Below, one piece after another: positions 16,398-49,374 of a stretch of DNA of 64,000 bases. A program made the translations under genes and the position numbers. Origin of the DNA: an uncultured Fulvivirga sp. (GTDB lineage: Bacteria > Bacteroidota > Bacteroidia > Cytophagales > Cyclobacteriaceae); assembly GCA_947500555.1 (NCBI GenBank), contig CANMSE010000007.1, positions 30,058 to 94,057 on the forward strand. Reading direction: 5' to 3'. Under the pieces are notes generated by a model that was given only the letters and a program-made list of their open reading frames with translations, was not told where the DNA came from and did not search any database. The number at the start of each line of letters is the position of its first letter. Position 1 is the stretch's first letter.

Positions 16398-16481
16398 ATG
16401 AAAATTTTTAGTAGCACATATAACCATCATTACCATCATCATGTTAAACACTTGATGCATGGGAGTTATATGTTTAAATAG
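16398..16481 (+). CDS. hisL: His operon leader peptide MKIFSSTYNHHYHHHVKHLMHGSYMFK
   Basis: 27-aa ORF with 7 His codons (HHYHHHVKHLMH) followed by an intrinsic terminator and hisG. Confidence 0.88.
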   Translation: MKIFSSTYNHHYHHHVKHLMHGSYMFK

Positions 16482-16503: not shown

Positions 16504-16537
16504 AAAAAGGCTTGTCATGCGACAAGCCTTTTTTTAT
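16504..16537 (+). terminator. His attenuator terminator hairpin
   Basis: AAAAAGGCTTGTC-ATGC-GACAAGCCTTTTT perfect 13-bp stem, 4-nt loop, T tract, 21 nt before hisG ATG. Confidence 0.92.
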
Positions 16538-37676: not shown

Positions 37677-38687
37677 TTACATTTCCTCCCTCAACTCAAA
37701 TACTTTTCGCATCTTATCAATCAGTCTTTTAGATTCAGAAAAGTTCAATGTTTGCTGTCCGTCTGAATATGCCTCCTCAGGTTTTTCATGGGTCTCATAA
37801 ATAACTCCATCGGCACCAGCCATGATACAAGCTAATGCCACCGGCTCGACATGATCCCGAATACCAATACCATGTGAAGGGTCGGCAATTACAGGCAAAT
37901 GAGATTTCTCTTTCAATATGGTTATCGCATTAATATCCATGGTATTTCTGGTCGCTTTCTCATAAGTCCTAATACCTCGCTCACAAAGCATTAAATTTTC
38001 GTTACCCGCAGAAAACACATATTCAGCCGAAGACAGTAACTCCTCAATCGTACCCGAAATACCGCGCTTGATGAGTACAGGCTTATGCACCTTTCCTAAT
38101 TCGTCCAGTAAATTAAAATTTTGCGTATTTCTTGCTCCCACCTGGAAGATATCAATGTAGTCATGCATTTCCTCTATCTGACTTACCTGCATCACTTCCG
38201 TAATAATTTTGATACCTGCTTTGCGTACAGCATCGTACCAAACCTTCAATCCATCGATACCTAGCCCTCTAAATGAGTAAGGCGAACTACGAGGTTTGTA
38301 AACACCTCCACGCATAATTTTTACGTTGTTCTCTATCAAATGCTCAATGGTCTTATCTATCTGGTCCTCTCCTTCAATGGAGCACGGTCCAGCCATAATT
38401 GCCATCCCTCCCTCTTCAATTACTACGCCATCACCTAAATCAATTACAGTAGGCTTTACCTTCCACTTTCGAGAAACAAGCTTATAATCGTCAGAGACAA
38501 TATGGATATCAGAAATACCAGGCATATGTCCAATATCACGGATATCGAAATCCTTTTTGCCAATCCCAACAATGTAATCACCTTTCTGAGTGTTTACTTC
38601 GGTGGTCTTATATTTCAGTCCGTTTATTTTGGTAACGATTCTGCTTTTAACTGCTTCGTCAATATTTTTTTCAAGTTGTATGATCAT
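37677..38687 (-). CDS. aroF: 3-deoxy-7-phosphoheptulonate synthase (type I beta, ferredoxin-like N-terminus)
   Basis: MAIMAGPCSIEGEDQ, GGVYKPRSSPYSFRGLG, VGARNTQNFNLL, LCERGIRTYE, PVIADPSHGIG. Confidence 0.95.
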   Translation of the reverse strand: MIIQLEKNIDEAVKSRIVTKINGLKYKTTEVNTQKGDYIVGIGKKDFDIRDIGHMPGISDIHIVSDDYKLVSRKWKVKPTVIDLGDGVVIEEGGMAIMAGPCSIEGEDQIDKTIEHLIENNVKIMRGGVYKPRSSPYSFRGLGIDGLKVWYDAVRKAGIKIITEVMQVSQIEEMHDYIDIFQVGARNTQNFNLLDELGKVHKPVLIKRGISGTIEELLSSAEYVFSAGNENLMLCERGIRTYEKATRNTMDINAITILKEKSHLPVIADPSHGIGIRDHVEPVALACIMAGADGVIYETHEKPEEAYSDGQQTLNFSESKRLIDKMRKVFELREEM

Positions 38688-38694
38688 TTTTGAT

Positions 38695-38726
38695 AAGTTT
38701 CATGCTCCAGGCTCCAAGTCTTTAGC
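38695..38726. repeat. Degenerate relative of the 39521-39544 repeat arm, trpA-aroF junction
   Basis: AAGTTTCATGCTCCAGGCTCC-AAGTCTTTAGC resembles AAGTTTCAAGCTGCAAGCCACAAGTCTTAGC at 39528-39558. Confidence 0.45.
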
Positions 38727-38738
38727 ATTAAAATGTGA

Positions 38739-39515
38739 TTAGTTATTTTTAATTTTTTTTACGAACTGATGAATATCTAATTTCAAATCTTTGCTATCCG
38801 TTAATGTCTTTATAAAAGCACTACCTATGATTGCTCCCTGCGCATTTTCTGTGGCCTGCTGAAAAGTCGTATTATTAGAAATACCAAAACCAATGAGTCG
38901 CGGATTTTTCAAGTCCATGCTGTTGATTCTTTTAAAATAGTTAAGCTGTTTTTCTTCAAAAATATCCTTGGCACCAGTAGTGCCTGCCGAAGAAACCATA
39001 TAGATGAAAGAATCGGTATGAGTATCAATCTCCGTTATTCGCTCATCCGAAGTTTGCGGAGAAATTAAGAATACGTTTCTCAAGTCATACGCTTCAAATA
39101 ACTCCCTATAAGTATTGAGGTATTCTGCCATTGGTAAATCCGGAATAATGAGCCCATCCACGCCAACCTGCTGACAAGTCTTACAGAAAGCTTCCAGTCC
39201 ATATTGCAAAATAGGATTTACATAACCCATTAAAATAACCGGTGTTGAATTGGTTTGCCTAAGCTCACCGAGCTGATCGAATAACACTTTAAGCGTCATT
39301 CCATTATTCAAGGCGATTGTATTACTCTCCTGAATAGTAGGTCCGTCTGCTACAGGATCAGAAAATGGAATGCCTATTTCTATCATATCCGCTCCTGCCT
39401 CTTCTAAATGATTAGCAATGGTCATTGTATCTCCAAGATTTGGGTAACCGGCAGTGTAGTAGACAGAGAGTATGTCCTTGGTTTTTTCTTGAAATAATTT
39501 ATTTATTCGATTCAT
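38739..39515 (-). CDS. trpA: Tryptophan synthase alpha subunit
   Basis: EIGIPFSDPVADGPTIQESN, GLIIPDLPMAEY, STGTTGAK-like SSAGTTGAKD; ATG at 39515 preferred (MNRINKLFQ). Confidence 0.96.
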   Translation of the reverse strand: MNRINKLFQEKTKDILSVYYTAGYPNLGDTMTIANHLEEAGADMIEIGIPFSDPVADGPTIQESNTIALNNGMTLKVLFDQLGELRQTNSTPVILMGYVNPILQYGLEAFCKTCQQVGVDGLIIPDLPMAEYLNTYRELFEAYDLRNVFLISPQTSDERITEIDTHTDSFIYMVSSAGTTGAKDIFEEKQLNYFKRINSMDLKNPRLIGFGISNNTTFQQATENAQGAIIGSAFIKTLTDSKDLKLDIHQFVKKIKNN

Positions 39516-39520
39516 GAAAT

Positions 39521-39605
39521 AAGCTTTAAGTTTCAAGCTGCAAGCCACAAGTCTTAGCTACCAATAATTTGAAACTAGATCCTTGTAGCTTAAGGCTTGA
39601 AGCTT
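39521..39605. repeat. Long imperfect hairpin between trpB and trpA
   Basis: Arms 39521-39544 and 39582-39605, 24 nt, 19 Watson-Crick pairs; most remaining positions can be G-U pairs on one strand. Confidence 0.65.
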
Positions 39606-39611
39606 GTTATT

Positions 39612-40793
39612 TTAATATTCTCCCCATTTTATATACGTATCCAAGTCTTTATCTCCTCTACCGGAAAGGTTAATAACCACCACATCAGATTTTTTGAGAT
39701 TTAGTTTAGCCAAAGCTGCCAGAGCATGAGCCGTCTCAATAGCCGGGATAATTCCTTCCAATCTGCTCAACTCCACTCCTGCTTCCATAGCCTCCTGATC
39801 AGTGGCACTTTCGAAATGGACTCTGCCCGTCTCAAACAAGTGAGCATGGATGGGACCGATACCTGGATAATCCAATCCCGCAGAAATAGAGTAAGGTTCC
39901 ACTACCTGGCCATCGTCCGTTTGCATGAGTAATGTCTTACTTCCATGTAACACGCCAGGTTTGCCCAATACTGTTGTAGCCGCTGACTGACCAGTGGCAT
40001 TACCTTTACCTGATGCCTCCACTGCCACTAGTTTTACCTCTTCATTATTCAAATAGTGATAAAAGGCTCCAGCTGCGTTACTTCCTCCTCCTACACATGC
40101 AATTACATAGTCAGGATTCTGAGTATCTTCTTGCTCCTCCAACTGCTTCATTATCTCCTCGCTTATCACTGACTGAAACTGTGTAACCATATCAGGATAA
40201 GGGTGCGGCCCTACCACAGAACCAATAATATAATGCGTATCTTCTGGGTGACTGATCCAGTGACGCATGGCCTCGTTTGTAGCATCTTTTAGTGTTTTGC
40301 TCCCGCTGGTTGCCGGCACTACTTTTGCGCCCAGTAATTTCATTCGTTCTACATTCGGTCGTTGACGCTCTATATCCACCTCACCCATGTATACAATACA
40401 CTCCATACCCATTAGTGCACAAACTGTAGCAGTAGCAACACCATGCTGTCCCGCTCCTGTCTCAGCGATTATCTTTTGCTTACCGAGCTCCTTAGCTAGC
40501 AAAATCTGGCCGATAGTATTATTGACCTTATGCGCTCCTGTGTGGCAGAGATCTTCTCTTTTTAGGTAAATCTTCGACTTGTATTTCTCAGAAAGTCTGG
40601 GCGCAAAATATAGTGGTGTAGGTCGGCCCACGTACTGCTTCAGTAAATACTCAAACTCCTTTTGAAAAGAACTCTCATTAATAATATCGAGGTATCTAAC
40701 TCTTAATTCTTCCACGTTCGGATATAGCATTTCGGGAATATAAGATCCTCCAAAATTTCCGTAATATCCATTTTCATCAACTGCGTACTTCAT
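39612..40793 (-). CDS. trpB: Tryptophan synthase beta subunit
   Basis: [62 protein letters not shown]. Confidence 0.98.
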
Positions 40794-40802
40794 CTTAATA
40801 TT

Positions 40803-41417
40803 CTATGAAATTTTACTTTTCAATTCTTCTAACTTCTGAATGTCTTTCAATCCTGGCTCAATCTCAAACTTGCTGTTTAGATCAATACCATAAATCTTGT
40901 CTGCAATAGGCACTAGCTCCTCAACGTTGTCCAAATTAATTCCTCCACTTAAGATCAATGGCTTTTTTAACTTTTGATCTTCAATCACAGACCAATCAAA
41001 CGCTATTCCATTACCTCCGTGCTGAGTTAATTTTGTATCGAACAAATAGTAATCGATAAATGGTGCATAAGCATCCAATTTTACCTGACCGGGTAATGCA
41101 TTACCTGCAAATACTTTAATGATTTTGAGTGCATTGGACTTTAATTCGACACAGTAATCGATATTTTCATCGCCATGAAGCTGAAGGTAATCGAGTTGGT
41201 ACTTTTTTTGGATATTCTTCACTTCCATAACAGGCTGATTCACAAATACACCGACCTTCAAAGCTGTTAGCACCTCTGGCATAATAAAATCTTTTCCCAC
41301 ATACCTGGGAGATTTCGGGAAGAAAATAAAGCCCATCATATCAGGCTGCAATGCAGCAACCTCCAAGATGTTATCTCGTAGCCCACAGACTTTTATTTTC
41401 AACCCAGTTTTAGGCAT
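40803..41417 (-). CDS. trpF: Phosphoribosylanthranilate isomerase
   Basis: KIKVCGLRDN, MGFIFFPKSPRYVG, LQLHGDE, LSGGINLDNVEEL; start at MPKTGLK (41417), overlaps trpC end. Confidence 0.95.
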   Translation of the reverse strand: MPKTGLKIKVCGLRDNILEVAALQPDMMGFIFFPKSPRYVGKDFIMPEVLTALKVGVFVNQPVMEVKNIQKKYQLDYLQLHGDENIDYCVELKSNALKIIKVFAGNALPGQVKLDAYAPFIDYYLFDTKLTQHGGNGIAFDWSVIEDQKLKKPLILSGGINLDNVEELVPIADKIYGIDLNSKFEIEPGLKDIQKLEELKSKIS

Positions 41418-42219
41418 ACTGCTCGCTTTGTAATTGTTGCAATGATTCAATAAACTGTTCGCACACTTTTTCTGGTCTACTTTGATGCATGAACTTTTCA
41501 CCCATCAAAAAACCTTGGAATCCCGCCTTCTTCAAGTCCAATACAGTAGTAGGATCGCTGATGCCACTTTCTGAAATTTTAACAAATTCAGATGGAATTT
41601 GATCTACCAGTTCTTTGGAAATATCTGTAGACACTTCAAATGTTTTGAGATCTCTGTTGTTCACTCCAACCAAATCGATATATTCATTGAGAGACTTCTC
41701 TAATTCCAGGCCATTATGTACTTCCAATAAAGTTTCCATTCCTAACGATTTAGCAAAGGCAGCTAACTCTTTGAGCTTACCCGGCTCTAAGGCTGCCGCT
41801 ATCAAAAGCACTGTATCAGTACCAATTGATTTAGCTTCCACCAATTGGTATTCATCCACCACAAAGTCTTTTCTTAAAATAGGGCAGAAATTGAATTTCC
41901 TGGCAGTTTGCAAATCTTCGTTCTTACCTCCAAAATAATGCGTGTCTGTTAATATGGATAGTGCGGAAGCACCTGCCTGCATATATCCGATAGATGTGCG
42001 TTCGATAGAGACGTGTGCATTAATCAATCCTTTGGAGGGCGATTTACGCTTTATCTCAGCTATGATTCCAGACTTATCTTCTCGTAAAATATACTTGCGC
42101 ATGGAAACGGTTTTGGAACCGAAGTAAATACTTTGTTCTAACAATTTCTCTGGAAAAAGTGATTTTCTCTCTGCTACTTCTTTGTGCTTATGGGCTACTA
42201 TTTCTTCTAAAATATTCAT
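41410..42219 (-). CDS. trpC: Indole-3-glycerol phosphate synthase
   Basis: IIAEIKRKSPSKG, ALSILTDTHYFGG, ILRKDFVVDEYQ, VGVNNRDLKTFEV, SESGISDP. Confidence 0.97.
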   Translation of the reverse strand: MNILEEIVAHKHKEVAERKSLFPEKLLEQSIYFGSKTVSMRKYILREDKSGIIAEIKRKSPSKGLINAHVSIERTSIGYMQAGASALSILTDTHYFGGKNEDLQTARKFNFCPILRKDFVVDEYQLVEAKSIGTDTVLLIAAALEPGKLKELAAFAKSLGMETLLEVHNGLELEKSLNEYIDLVGVNNRDLKTFEVSTDISKELVDQIPSEFVKISESGISDPTTVLDLKKAGFQGFLMGEKFMHQSRPEKVCEQFIESLQQLQSEQYA

Positions 42220-42296
42220 TTCTTTTAGTTTCGCATTAGACTAGACTCTTCACAAAAAATGCTCATAGTGACAGTTTTCTCATCAATTTGACAATC

Positions 42297-42340
42297 GTCA
42301 TTCTGATTGAATCTGCTTCGCAGATGATTGAAGAATCTCA
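42297..42340. repeat. REP-like repeat GTCATTCTGATTGAATCTGCTTCGCAGATGATTGAAGAATCTCA, trpD-trpC junction
   Basis: Matches the common Bacteroidota GTCATTCTGA...GAAGAATCTC intergenic repeat style; internal ATCTGC-TTC-GCAGAT palindrome. Confidence 0.6.
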
Positions 42341-42350
42341 TTTAATGATT

Positions 42351-43361
42351 TTATGAATTTGCTATACTCGTTTTCTTTTCAATTAATTTTTTAAATGCAT
42401 TTAGGGCTTTGCCTGATTTTAATGACTCATCTGCTTTAGCCAATGCCTCCTCTAATGATTGACTTCTATCGGCACAATACAAAGCCATACCTGAATTGGC
42501 CACTACTACCTGATGCTGAGCATCCGTAGCTTCACACTTCAATACATGTTCGAAAATCTTGGCTGATGATTCAACGGTATCTCCTCCGTAAATATCCTGC
42601 TGCGATAGTTGAGATAATCCTAAATCAGTTGGTTGAAGCAATTGCTCCCCTTCATTGGTAACCATTTTAAATGCTCCCGTTAGGGATATTTCATCGTATC
42701 CATCAAGTGCATGTAAAATCAAGAAGTCTTTTGTCGTTTTCTGGTACAAATAGCCATACAGACGTGCTAGCTCCAGACTAAAAACCCCAACTAATTGTTT
42801 AGACGGAAAAGATGGATTTACCATCGGCCCAAGCATATTGAAAAAGGTTTTAACGCCAAGGTCTTTACGGATAGGCGCTACATTTTTCATGGCCGGATGA
42901 AAAAGAGGTGCATGCAAAAAACAAATGTTTGCCTCGTCCAATGTTCTTTTTAACTCGGTACTATCATTGGTAAACTCATAACCAAAGTAGTTCATTAGGT
43001 TGGAGGAGCCACAGACCGAAGACACTCCATTATTACCGTGCTTAGCTACTGCCTGACCAGCACCGGCAACCACGAAAGAAGACAGGGTAGAAATGTTGAA
43101 AGTATTTTTACCATCACCACCCGTACCACATAGATCAATTGCATCATATCCTTCTAAATCAACAGGCACACATAATTCCAACATTGCATCTCTAAATCCT
43201 GTGAGTTCGTCTACCGTAATAGTGCGCATCATATACACCGTAAGAAAAGCGGCCACCTGACTCTGATTAAACTTACCCCCGGCCAGATCTACCAATACCT
43301 GGTGAGCGGTTGCTTTATCTAACGTATCGTGATTAAATAGTCTATAGAGTATCTCTTTCAT
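42351..43361 (-). CDS. trpD: Anthranilate phosphoribosyltransferase
   Basis: DLCGTGGDGKNTFNISTLSSFVVAGAGQAVAKHGNNGVSSVCGSSNLM. Confidence 0.97.
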   Translation of the reverse strand: MKEILYRLFNHDTLDKATAHQVLVDLAGGKFNQSQVAAFLTVYMMRTITVDELTGFRDAMLELCVPVDLEGYDAIDLCGTGGDGKNTFNISTLSSFVVAGAGQAVAKHGNNGVSSVCGSSNLMNYFGYEFTNDSTELKRTLDEANICFLHAPLFHPAMKNVAPIRKDLGVKTFFNMLGPMVNPSFPSKQLVGVFSLELARLYGYLYQKTTKDFLILHALDGYDEISLTGAFKMVTNEGEQLLQPTDLGLSQLSQQDIYGGDTVESSAKIFEHVLKCEATDAQHQVVVANSGMALYCADRSQSLEEALAKADESLKSGKALNAFKKLIEKKTSIANS

Positions 43362-43363
43362 AC

Positions 43364-43933
43364 TTAATTCTCAATCCAATTTTTAATTAATTGCAGTCCC
43401 TCTTTGGTCATTATAGATTCAGGATGAAACTGAAGTCCTTTAACATCGTAATATTCATGTGCAACGCCCATCACTAAGCCTTTAGAATCCATTGCGATAA
43501 CCTTCAATGGAGGGGTAATAGAGTCGTGATCCACTGACCAAGAGTGATAGTGCGCTATTTTAAATGATTTAGGAAGACCTTTGAACAATTCATCATTATG
43601 AGATGCTAATTCACCCTCCACTCCATGTAACACCTCTTCCATATTGAATAAGCTGCCTCCATATACTTCGGCTATTGCCTGATGACCTAAACAAATCCCT
43701 AAGATAGATCTTGTTGATCCATACTTGACAATTAGCTCCTTCATAATTCCCGCTTCATCAGGAATACCAGGACCAGGTGAGAGCAGTATTTTATCATATT
43801 TAGCTACTTCATCTAGACTTATTTTATCATTTCTATGAACCTCTACATTATTGTTATAGCCTAGCGCATGAAGTCCGTGTACTAAGTTGTAGACGAACGA
43901 ATCGTAATTATCTAATACTAGTATCTTCATCAC
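43364..43933 (-). CDS. trpG: Anthranilate synthase component II (glutamine amidotransferase)
   Basis: ILVLDNYDSFVYNLVHGL, LSPGPGIPDEAG, ILGICLGHQAIAEVYGG, LQFHPESIMT. Confidence 0.97.
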   Translation of the reverse strand: MMKILVLDNYDSFVYNLVHGLHALGYNNNVEVHRNDKISLDEVAKYDKILLSPGPGIPDEAGIMKELIVKYGSTRSILGICLGHQAIAEVYGGSLFNMEEVLHGVEGELASHNDELFKGLPKSFKIAHYHSWSVDHDSITPPLKVIAMDSKGLVMGVAHEYYDVKGLQFHPESIMTKEGLQLIKNWIEN

Positions 43934-45330
43934 TTATTTATCTCCTCAGCTAGTTTAATGGCTTTTCTCAAGGCTGCTAGTTTGTTATCAACCTCTTTCA
44001 ACTCACTTGCTGGTTTAGATTTAGCGACTACCCCGGCTCCGGCATGGTAGTGCAGCTCATTGTCTTTACATAAAAAGGAGCGAATCATAATAGCGTGATT
44101 AAAGTCCCCATTAAATCCTACAAAGCCAATGGCTCCAGCATAATAATTTCGACTTACCTGTTCGTATTTATCTATCAATTGCATGGCCTTGTACTTCGGT
44201 GCCCCTGAGAGTGTACCTGCCGGAAATGTGTCGGCCACTAATTGCAGTGATGATTGACCCGGATCTAATTCACCTGTTACCTTAGAAACGAGATGTATTA
44301 CATGAGAGTAGTACTGAACTTCCTTGAACACTTCCACGTCTACATTCTTAGCACTTCTGCTCAGGTCATTTCTAGCTAGGTCAACCAACATGATATGCTC
44401 AGCATTTTCTTTTTCATCTGCCGATAGTTTTTTAGCTAACTCTGCATCTGCGGCATCGTCTCCTGTTCTCTTAAAAGTGCCCGCTATGGGGAAAATTGAC
44501 GCCTTATTTCCCTTTATACTTATTTGTGATTCTGGAGAAGACCCAAAAATCTTAAAACTGCCATAGTCATAATAAAATAAATATGGAGACGGATTTATAG
44601 ATCGCAACGCTCTGTAAACATTGAACTCATCCCCTTGATATGGCGACTTAAATCTTCTACTCAACACAATCTGAAACACATCGCCTCGATGACAATGTTC
44701 AACTCCTTTTTCTATGATATCTAAAAACTGATTATCAGTATAGGAGGAAGTCTCGTCTCCTGTAATCTCAAAACTAAACTGAGGGTCGTCATGGCGTTTG
44801 ATTAAAGAAATCATTTCATTCAAATAGCTTGTATCGTCACCCTCTGGCGCATGCTCGAATACATATAGCTCATTTTTAAAATGATCAATAACTATAACAA
44901 GGCGATACAGACGATAAAGCACATCTGGAATTAATATATTCTTGTTACTTAAAGACAGCTCTTCGTATTGCTGTACTGCATCGTAAGCCATGTAGCCAAA
45001 AATACCATTTGAGCTAAATTTGAATTGGTCAGGCTCACTAACAAATAAGTTCTTAAAAGCTTCAAATTCTCCTACAAACTCAGATCGATCAATTTCTTTA
45101 TCTATGGTTGAGCTACCAGGTAGCTGAACGCTCAAATTTTGACCGCTAAGTTGAAAAGACGCCATTGGTTGGCAGCAGATATAAGAAAAGCTATTCTCAT
45201 TACCATGATAATCCGAGCTTTCTAGAAGAATACTATCCGCATATTTATCTCTGAGCCGAAGATAAATACTCACAGGTGTAAGTGTGTCTGCCAGTAGTTT
45301 TTTGTAAGTAGTAGTGAGTTTTATTGCCAT
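43930..45330 (-). CDS. trpE: Anthranilate synthase component I
   Basis: GDVFQIVLSRRFKSPYQGDEFNVYRALRSINPSPYLFY, SSPESQISI, IAGTFKRTGD, HIMLVDLARNDLSR, GTLSGAPKYKAMQLID. Confidence 0.97.
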   Translation of the reverse strand: MAIKLTTTYKKLLADTLTPVSIYLRLRDKYADSILLESSDYHGNENSFSYICCQPMASFQLSGQNLSVQLPGSSTIDKEIDRSEFVGEFEAFKNLFVSEPDQFKFSSNGIFGYMAYDAVQQYEELSLSNKNILIPDVLYRLYRLVIVIDHFKNELYVFEHAPEGDDTSYLNEMISLIKRHDDPQFSFEITGDETSSYTDNQFLDIIEKGVEHCHRGDVFQIVLSRRFKSPYQGDEFNVYRALRSINPSPYLFYYDYGSFKIFGSSPESQISIKGNKASIFPIAGTFKRTGDDAADAELAKKLSADEKENAEHIMLVDLARNDLSRSAKNVDVEVFKEVQYYSHVIHLVSKVTGELDPGQSSLQLVADTFPAGTLSGAPKYKAMQLIDKYEQVSRNYYAGAIGFVGFNGDFNHAIMIRSFLCKDNELHYHAGAGVVAKSKPASELKEVDNKLAALRKAIKLAEEINK

Positions 45331-45352: not shown

Positions 45353-45385
45353 AAAAAAAGCTCGCTGAGAACAGCGAGCTTTTTT
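45353..45385 (-). terminator. Trp attenuator terminator hairpin
   Basis: Minus strand AAAAAAGCTCGCTG-TTCT-CAGCGAGCTTTTTTT, perfect 14-bp stem including A/T flanks, T tract, then trpE. Confidence 0.93.
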
Positions 45386-45418
45386 ATTTCTATATGGTTT
45401 ACATATAACAGTGCTGTT

Positions 45419-45472
45419 CTATCCTTTTGGAAAGTACCACCACCAAGCGCTATATGTATTTATCGTTTTCAT
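45419..45472 (-). CDS. trpL: Trp operon leader peptide MKTINTYSAWWWYFPKG
   Basis: 17-aa ORF with three consecutive TGG codons before attenuator and trpE. Confidence 0.92.
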   Translation of the reverse strand: MKTINTYSAWWWYFPKG

Positions 45473-45477
45473 TGGTT

Positions 45478-45485
45478 CAAATATA
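45478..45485 (-). promoter_or_regulatory. Bacteroidota -7 element TATATTTG upstream of trp leader
   Basis: TAnnTTTG match, 5 nt before the leader ATG. Confidence 0.55.
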
Positions 45486-49202: not shown

Positions 49203-49210
49203 TACCTTTG
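49203..49210 (+). promoter_or_regulatory. -7 element TACCTTTG of SRP RNA gene
   Basis: Exact TAnnTTTG just before the predicted RNA 5' end. Confidence 0.55.
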
Positions 49211-49213
49211 CAC

Positions 49214-49308
49214 AGGCAAATCAGTACGACCAGCTCCTGCTGAACTCCCCCAGGACCGGAAGGTAGCAAGGGTAGGCGGTTGTAGCGGTGCGATACTTGA
49301 TTTGCCTT
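49214..49308 (+). ncRNA. ffs: Signal recognition particle RNA, small bacterial type (4.5S)
   Basis: AGGCAAATCA...CCCCCAGGACCGGAAGGTAGCAAGGGTAGGCGG...TGATTTGCCT; closing helix plus conserved SRP domain IV, followed by T tract. Confidence 0.95.
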
Positions 49309-49374
49309 TTTTTGTTTTATAATTCAGTGAATTATCTTAGCACAAATCTTTTAACCACTACCTAACAAAATTCT

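Follow-up and report, generated by a model that had tools for sequence, protein, structure and literature searches.

A predicted tryptophan attenuator upstream of trpE in a Fulvivirga-like Cytophagales bacterium

The trp leader of Escherichia coli (trpL) encodes a leader peptide with Trp codons, and its RNA can form alternative 1:2, 2:3 and 3:4 hairpins, with an intrinsic terminator before trpE. In the Bacteroidetes, the Bacteroid-trp motif (Rfam family RF01692) was published in 2010 (Weinberg et al., Table 1 of PMC2864571) and has been noted before the trp operon of Flavobacterium psychrophilum (PMC6414381). The transcriptome of the latter organism gave strong indications of leader-peptide attenuation before its amino-acid operons, and hisG and pheA were reported to have structured 5' elements (PMC9723704). 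Leader peptides that are themselves leaderless are found in other phyla. They include trpL of Sinorhizobium meliloti (PMC7298713) and the mycobacterial polycysteine attenuators (Canestrari 2020, as cited in PMC13236596).

The element described here is situated in a 64-kb stretch of DNA (the window), directly upstream of a complete trpEGDCFBA operon, which encodes the whole tryptophan pathway. This operon is very probably controlled through the element by ribosome-mediated tryptophan attenuation, as the initial annotation had proposed. This reading is supported by the match to RF01692, by the conservation of the leader and terminator, and by the antiterminator that was subsequently found. The coordinates of all features are given in Table 1.

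Table 1. Features of the trp attenuator and its surroundings in the window
Feature	Position	Strand	Basis or remark
RF01692 Bacteroid-trp match	45492-45373	minus	Rfam; 52.7 bits, gathering threshold 49, full-length 1-131
-7 promoter box TATATTTG (predicted)	45478-45485	minus	Bacteroidetes sigma-A consensus TAnnTTTG; predicted start about 45473
Leader peptide ORF MKTINTYSAWWWYFPKG, 17 aa	45472-45419	minus	Homologous UGG-repeat leaders before trpE, 88 distinct regions
Leader start codon ATG	45472-45470	minus	
Three successive UGG (Trp) codons, putative sensing codons	45445-45437	minus	
Leader stop codon UAG	45421-45419	minus	
1:2 (protector) hairpin over Trp codons and antiterminator strand, predicted to form without a ribosome	45400-45458	minus	Fold, RF01692 model
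Antiterminator strand (region 2) AGAACAGC, overlapping the UAG stop	45420-45413	minus	
Antiterminator partner (region 3) GCUGUUCU / GCTGTTCT, in terminator 5' arm and loop	45375-45368	minus	
Intrinsic terminator (3:4 hairpin) and T tract, AAAAAAGCTCGCTG-TTCT-CAGCGAGCTTTTTT	45385-45354	minus	
trpE, anthranilate synthase component I, first gene of the operon	43930-45330	minus	PF00425, PF04715
trpG, trpD, trpC, trpF, trpB, trpA and DAHP synthase gene, rest of the operon	37677-43933	minus	Pfam domains
thx, 30S ribosomal protein Thx, 58 aa	45712-45536	minus	PF17070
His leader peptide MKIFSSTYNHHYHHHVKHLMHGSYMFK, to its stop	16398-16481	plus	Before hisG
Perfect hairpin and T tract of the His leader	16504-16533	plus	Before hisG
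Small SRP RNA	49207-49311	plus	Rfam RF04183 Bacteroidales_small_SRP, 84.8 bits

Family, leader and terminator

An Rfam cmscan of the whole window gave two matches, RF01692 among them, and the copy at the trp leader is the single RF01692 match in the whole genome. The element belongs to this catalogued family both by its score, which exceeds the gathering threshold, and by its place upstream of Trp genes in the Bacteroidetes, the trpE similarity pointing to a Fulvivirga-like member of the Cytophagales. This kind of switch is already known for the phylum. The proteobacterial model RF00513 (Trp_leader) gave 37.8 bits, below its cut-off of 41, and was rejected. RF01692 reaches its cut-off in 2/61 relatives, though most of them carry an obvious attenuator, and fell below it in all five of the checked loci with plainly visible attenuators, showing that the model is under-sensitive in this order. 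It describes the 1:2 hairpin and stops at the first bases of the terminator. The full terminator and the antiterminator are thus absent from the model, and the antiterminator had to be sought separately.

Upon rereading the minus strand, the leader peptide, the hairpin and their coordinates were found to be exactly as first annotated. The strand reads TATATTTGAACCA ATG AAA ACG ATA AAT ACA TAT AGC GCT TGG TGG TGG TAC TTT CCA AAA GGA TAG through the leader, continues with AACAGCACTG and later with AAAAAAGCTCGCTG TTCT CAGCGAGCTTTTTTT, and finally reaches trpE. The ORF is short and rich in codons for the product of the operon, as in other amino-acid attenuators, and an intrinsic terminator with a T tract lies between it and the first gene. 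The terminator, found by a pattern scan, has a perfect stem of 14 bp with 6 G-C pairs and ends 23 nt upstream of the trpE start. The earlier description of this hairpin as GC-rich is correct for the inner 8 bp, but not for the outer 6 pairs, which are all A-T.

The comparison of trpE upstream regions in the Cytophagales, suggested in the initial annotation as a check, drew on 80 trpE loci of named genomes together with 30 of the window's genome and its relatives. A UGG-repeat mini-ORF followed by a terminator precedes trpE in 72/81 of the regions scanned first. The complete set comprises 88 distinct regions of Cytophagales and Sphingobacteriales with 98 distinct units, most of which are missed by Rfam; in the 88 regions, conservation extends to leader, antiterminator and terminator jointly. 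Nearly all relatives retain the terminator, mostly 12 to about 280 nt from trpE. The trpE matches of seven loci (L095, L096, L097, L098, L106, L110 and L111) were reported with one internal stop codon each, possibly only the terminal stop of the match.

The thx gene is situated just upstream on the same strand, ending 63 nt from the trp leader, and an intergenic terminator would be nothing unusual. The hairpin might then merely terminate the thx transcript, the WWW mini-ORF being a product of chance. However, no other ATG mini-ORF of 8-40 codons in the window contains WWW, and the trp leader has a terminator, whereas among 30 simulated windows (first-order Markov, same dinucleotide content) a single WWW mini-ORF occurred, which lacked a terminator. 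In addition, many of the regions in which leader, antiterminator and terminator are jointly conserved have no thx recognised nearby, and a promoter box lies between thx and the leader. Simulation and conservation together rule out a chance origin of the WWW ORF, and termination of thx as the sole function of the hairpin is extremely improbable. The stretch from leader to terminator has a folding energy of -41.3 kcal/mol vs -22.6 +/- 3.2 in shuffles, 5.8 sd lower. The bare 9-mer TGGTGGTGG has 85 copies in the genome and its count was dropped as evidence; because it is so common, the evidence consists of the combination of features and their conservation.

The short gap between terminator and trpE and the AT-rich character of the region would also be compatible with translational or Rho-dependent control, by uORF reinitiation or by masking of the trpE start, in place of intrinsic termination. 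Such control is highly improbable here, since a hairpin of 14 bp followed by an unbroken T tract has the form of a standard intrinsic terminator, and nearly all relatives have retained it. Because its distance from trpE varies, masking of the trpE start is not a conserved feature.

A second attenuator had been claimed in the same neighbourhood, and a His leader followed by a hairpin was indeed found before hisG. His-run leaders precede hisG in 24/30 loci examined, the window's copy included. The His leader has no Rfam match at cut-off. Two such elements at a distance of about 29 kb, each preceding a separate operon, are unremarkable.

The antiterminator and the alternative folds

The strand AGAACAGC is the exact reverse complement of GCTGTTCT over 8 nt, a length equalled by 0.2% of shuffled region 2 sequences (P = 0.002). 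The helix of AGAACAGC with GCUGUUCU uses the 5' arm of the terminator, so that antiterminator and terminator would be mutually exclusive, as in other amino-acid attenuators. An alignment of 32 units has 89.4% of the cells in this helix paired, vs 30-57% when the partners are slid by 1-3 columns. Upon permuting the rows, the value was 86.2 +/- 1.1, and 10/1000 permutations were as high as observed. The strong conservation of the motif leaves room for few two-sided, compensatory changes, which occupy 9 cells in the 32 sequences; visible cases include TGAACAC/GTGTTCA (in second units), TGAACG/CGTTCA, TGAACT/AGTTCA and GATCGG/CCGATC. The pairing excess beyond that due to conservation alone thus appears to be present but modest. 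For 81 of the 98 units, region 2 pairs better with its own region 3 than with the median foreign one. For the terminator stem, also over 32 sequences, 90% of the cells are paired and 48 changes are two-sided. The putative antiterminator, the missing half of the element supplied by the comparison, is what would make a switch of the leader and terminator.

The predicted folds depend on the position of the ribosome. In the simulation, a ribosome whose edge lies at any of the three Trp codons, combined with a polymerase that has reached the end of region 3, gives the antiterminator as the predicted fold. A ribosome placed at the stop codon covers region 2 and leaves the terminator as the sole fold. 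With the ribosome stalled, the antiterminator has a predicted energy of about -12 to -14 kcal/mol and is weaker at equilibrium than the terminator; the switch must therefore be kinetic, as in other attenuators.

Stalling, termination and the response to tryptophan can be inferred from this anatomy. RNA polymerase would start at, or a few bases from, the leader AUG, and a ribosome would enter the 17-codon leader. When charged tRNA-Trp is scarce, the ribosome would stall at UGG-UGG-UGG and open the 1:2 hairpin, freeing AGAACAGC to pair with GCUGUUCU; the terminator would be blocked and the polymerase would proceed into trpE. When tryptophan is plentiful, the ribosome would reach the UAG codon and cover the overlapping antiterminator strand, the 3:4 hairpin would form, and transcription would end at about 45353.

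Attenuation would thereby release an RNA of ~120 nt starting at AUG, resembling rnTrpL of S. meliloti (PMC7298713), and the leader RNA or peptide might also act in trans, as do rnTrpL and peTrpL of that organism. This additional role is very improbable: apart from the W run, the peptide shows little conservation across the Cytophagales, contrary to what a trans-acting product would need, and nothing in the analysis points to targets.

The 5' end of the leader transcript

In F. psychrophilum the -7 box TAnnTTTG sits -12 to -5 from the transcription start (PMC9723704). The box TATATTTG of the window begins 13 nt upstream of the leader ATG, which places the predicted 5' end about 1 nt before the AUG. 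As judged from this position, the leader mRNA should be nearly leaderless. There is no clear -33 TTTG upstream of the leader in the window; several relatives have one. A scan for promoters of the sigma-70 type, the wrong type here, gave no more matches than in shuffles and was discarded.

The position of the box recurs among the relatives. It starts at -18 to -12 from the leader ATG in 41 of the 88 first leaders, vs 0.39 expected from shuffled upstream sequence, predicting 5' ends of 0-6 nt for these leaders. The same placement was found for 4/550 of the longest ORFs in the compared loci, which is only a rough baseline because many longest ORFs lie inside operons. Leaderless mRNAs are a minority in the phylum, amounting to 5.5% in F. 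psychrophilum (PMC9723704), and 87% of the predicted transcripts of F. johnsoniae have a leader of more than 10 nt (PMC6847099). Unlike in the window, the box of the Flavobacteriaceae-type trp leaders that were fetched lies mostly at -24 to -30, giving a predicted 5' leader of 12-18 nt, with a minority at -12 to -15.

Upstream of the trp leader, thx was recognised in 24 regions, and in 12 of these its stop codon is -1 to 18 nt from the leader ATG. None of these 12 abutting regions, which do not include the window, has a -7 box, and the box is present in 10/12 of those with a larger gap to thx. It seems that the leader is served either by a promoter of its own that abuts it or by transcription, perhaps also translation, continuing from thx; coupling of thx and leader is put forward as a hypothesis. 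It can be proposed tentatively, at slightly less than even confidence, that in the Cytophagales, which have no Shine-Dalgarno initiation, the Trp leader is systematically placed for undelayed delivery of the ribosome. Delivery would occur by a transcript start 0-6 nt before the AUG or by an AUG abutting the thx stop, with possible termination-reinitiation. If this is true, the placement would be an adaptation of attenuation to translation without a ribosome-binding site. Both kinds of start raise the question of how attenuation loads a ribosome in the absence of a Shine-Dalgarno site.

Tandem units and comparison with known attenuators

Two complete units, each having a leader peptide, antiterminator and terminator, stand in series before trpE in seven loci of the same genus (L084, L085, L086, L089, L090, L091 and L093). 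Tandem trp attenuators were also found in L003 and L004, probably of the same species as two of the same-genus loci, and in Rufibacter (L041, L044 and L066). The TrpE tree joins the window to L084 (100/98), within a group of four rows whose other three members are tandem. Upon aligning the DNA (alignment A1, in which the wrongly oriented row L001chk was ignored), unit 1 and the promoter were found to be kept in the window and unit 2 to be absent. The simplest reading is that the second attenuator unit has probably been lost in the window. In the literature searched, Salmonella mgtCBR offers the only other case of attenuators in tandem, and these are of a different kind (PMC3641672). The paired units of the sister species raise the question of what is gained by a second attenuator in series.

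The trp operon of this bacterium is thus very probably under leader-peptide attenuation, as in other Bacteroidetes. The analysis adds a candidate antiterminator to a family model that mostly misses the attenuators of this order. A specialist might pursue the near-leaderless start, the thx-abutting variants and the tandem relatives, which appear to be undescribed in the papers searched. No statement of a leaderless leader peptide for the Bacteroidetes was found in the same literature, most subscription papers being outside the search.

The closest described element is RF01692 Bacteroid-trp, which like that of the window occurs before trp genes of the same phylum and has a UGG leader and a 1:2 hairpin. 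The model, however, has neither the full terminator nor the antiterminator described here. F. psychrophilum likewise shows signs of leader-peptide attenuation before amino-acid operons, but is a member of the Flavobacteriaceae, not of the Cytophagales. In the S. meliloti trpL and, as cited in PMC13236596, the mycobacterial polycysteine attenuators, the attenuator ORF begins at the 5' end of the RNA, as is predicted for the window leader from its promoter box; both belong to other phyla. The element resembles E. coli trpL (RF00513) in its Trp-codon leader, its alternative hairpins and its intrinsic terminator before trpE, no sequence homology being claimed. It differs in having three Trp codons, where E. 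coli has two, and in a predicted near-leaderless start without an evident Shine-Dalgarno sequence.
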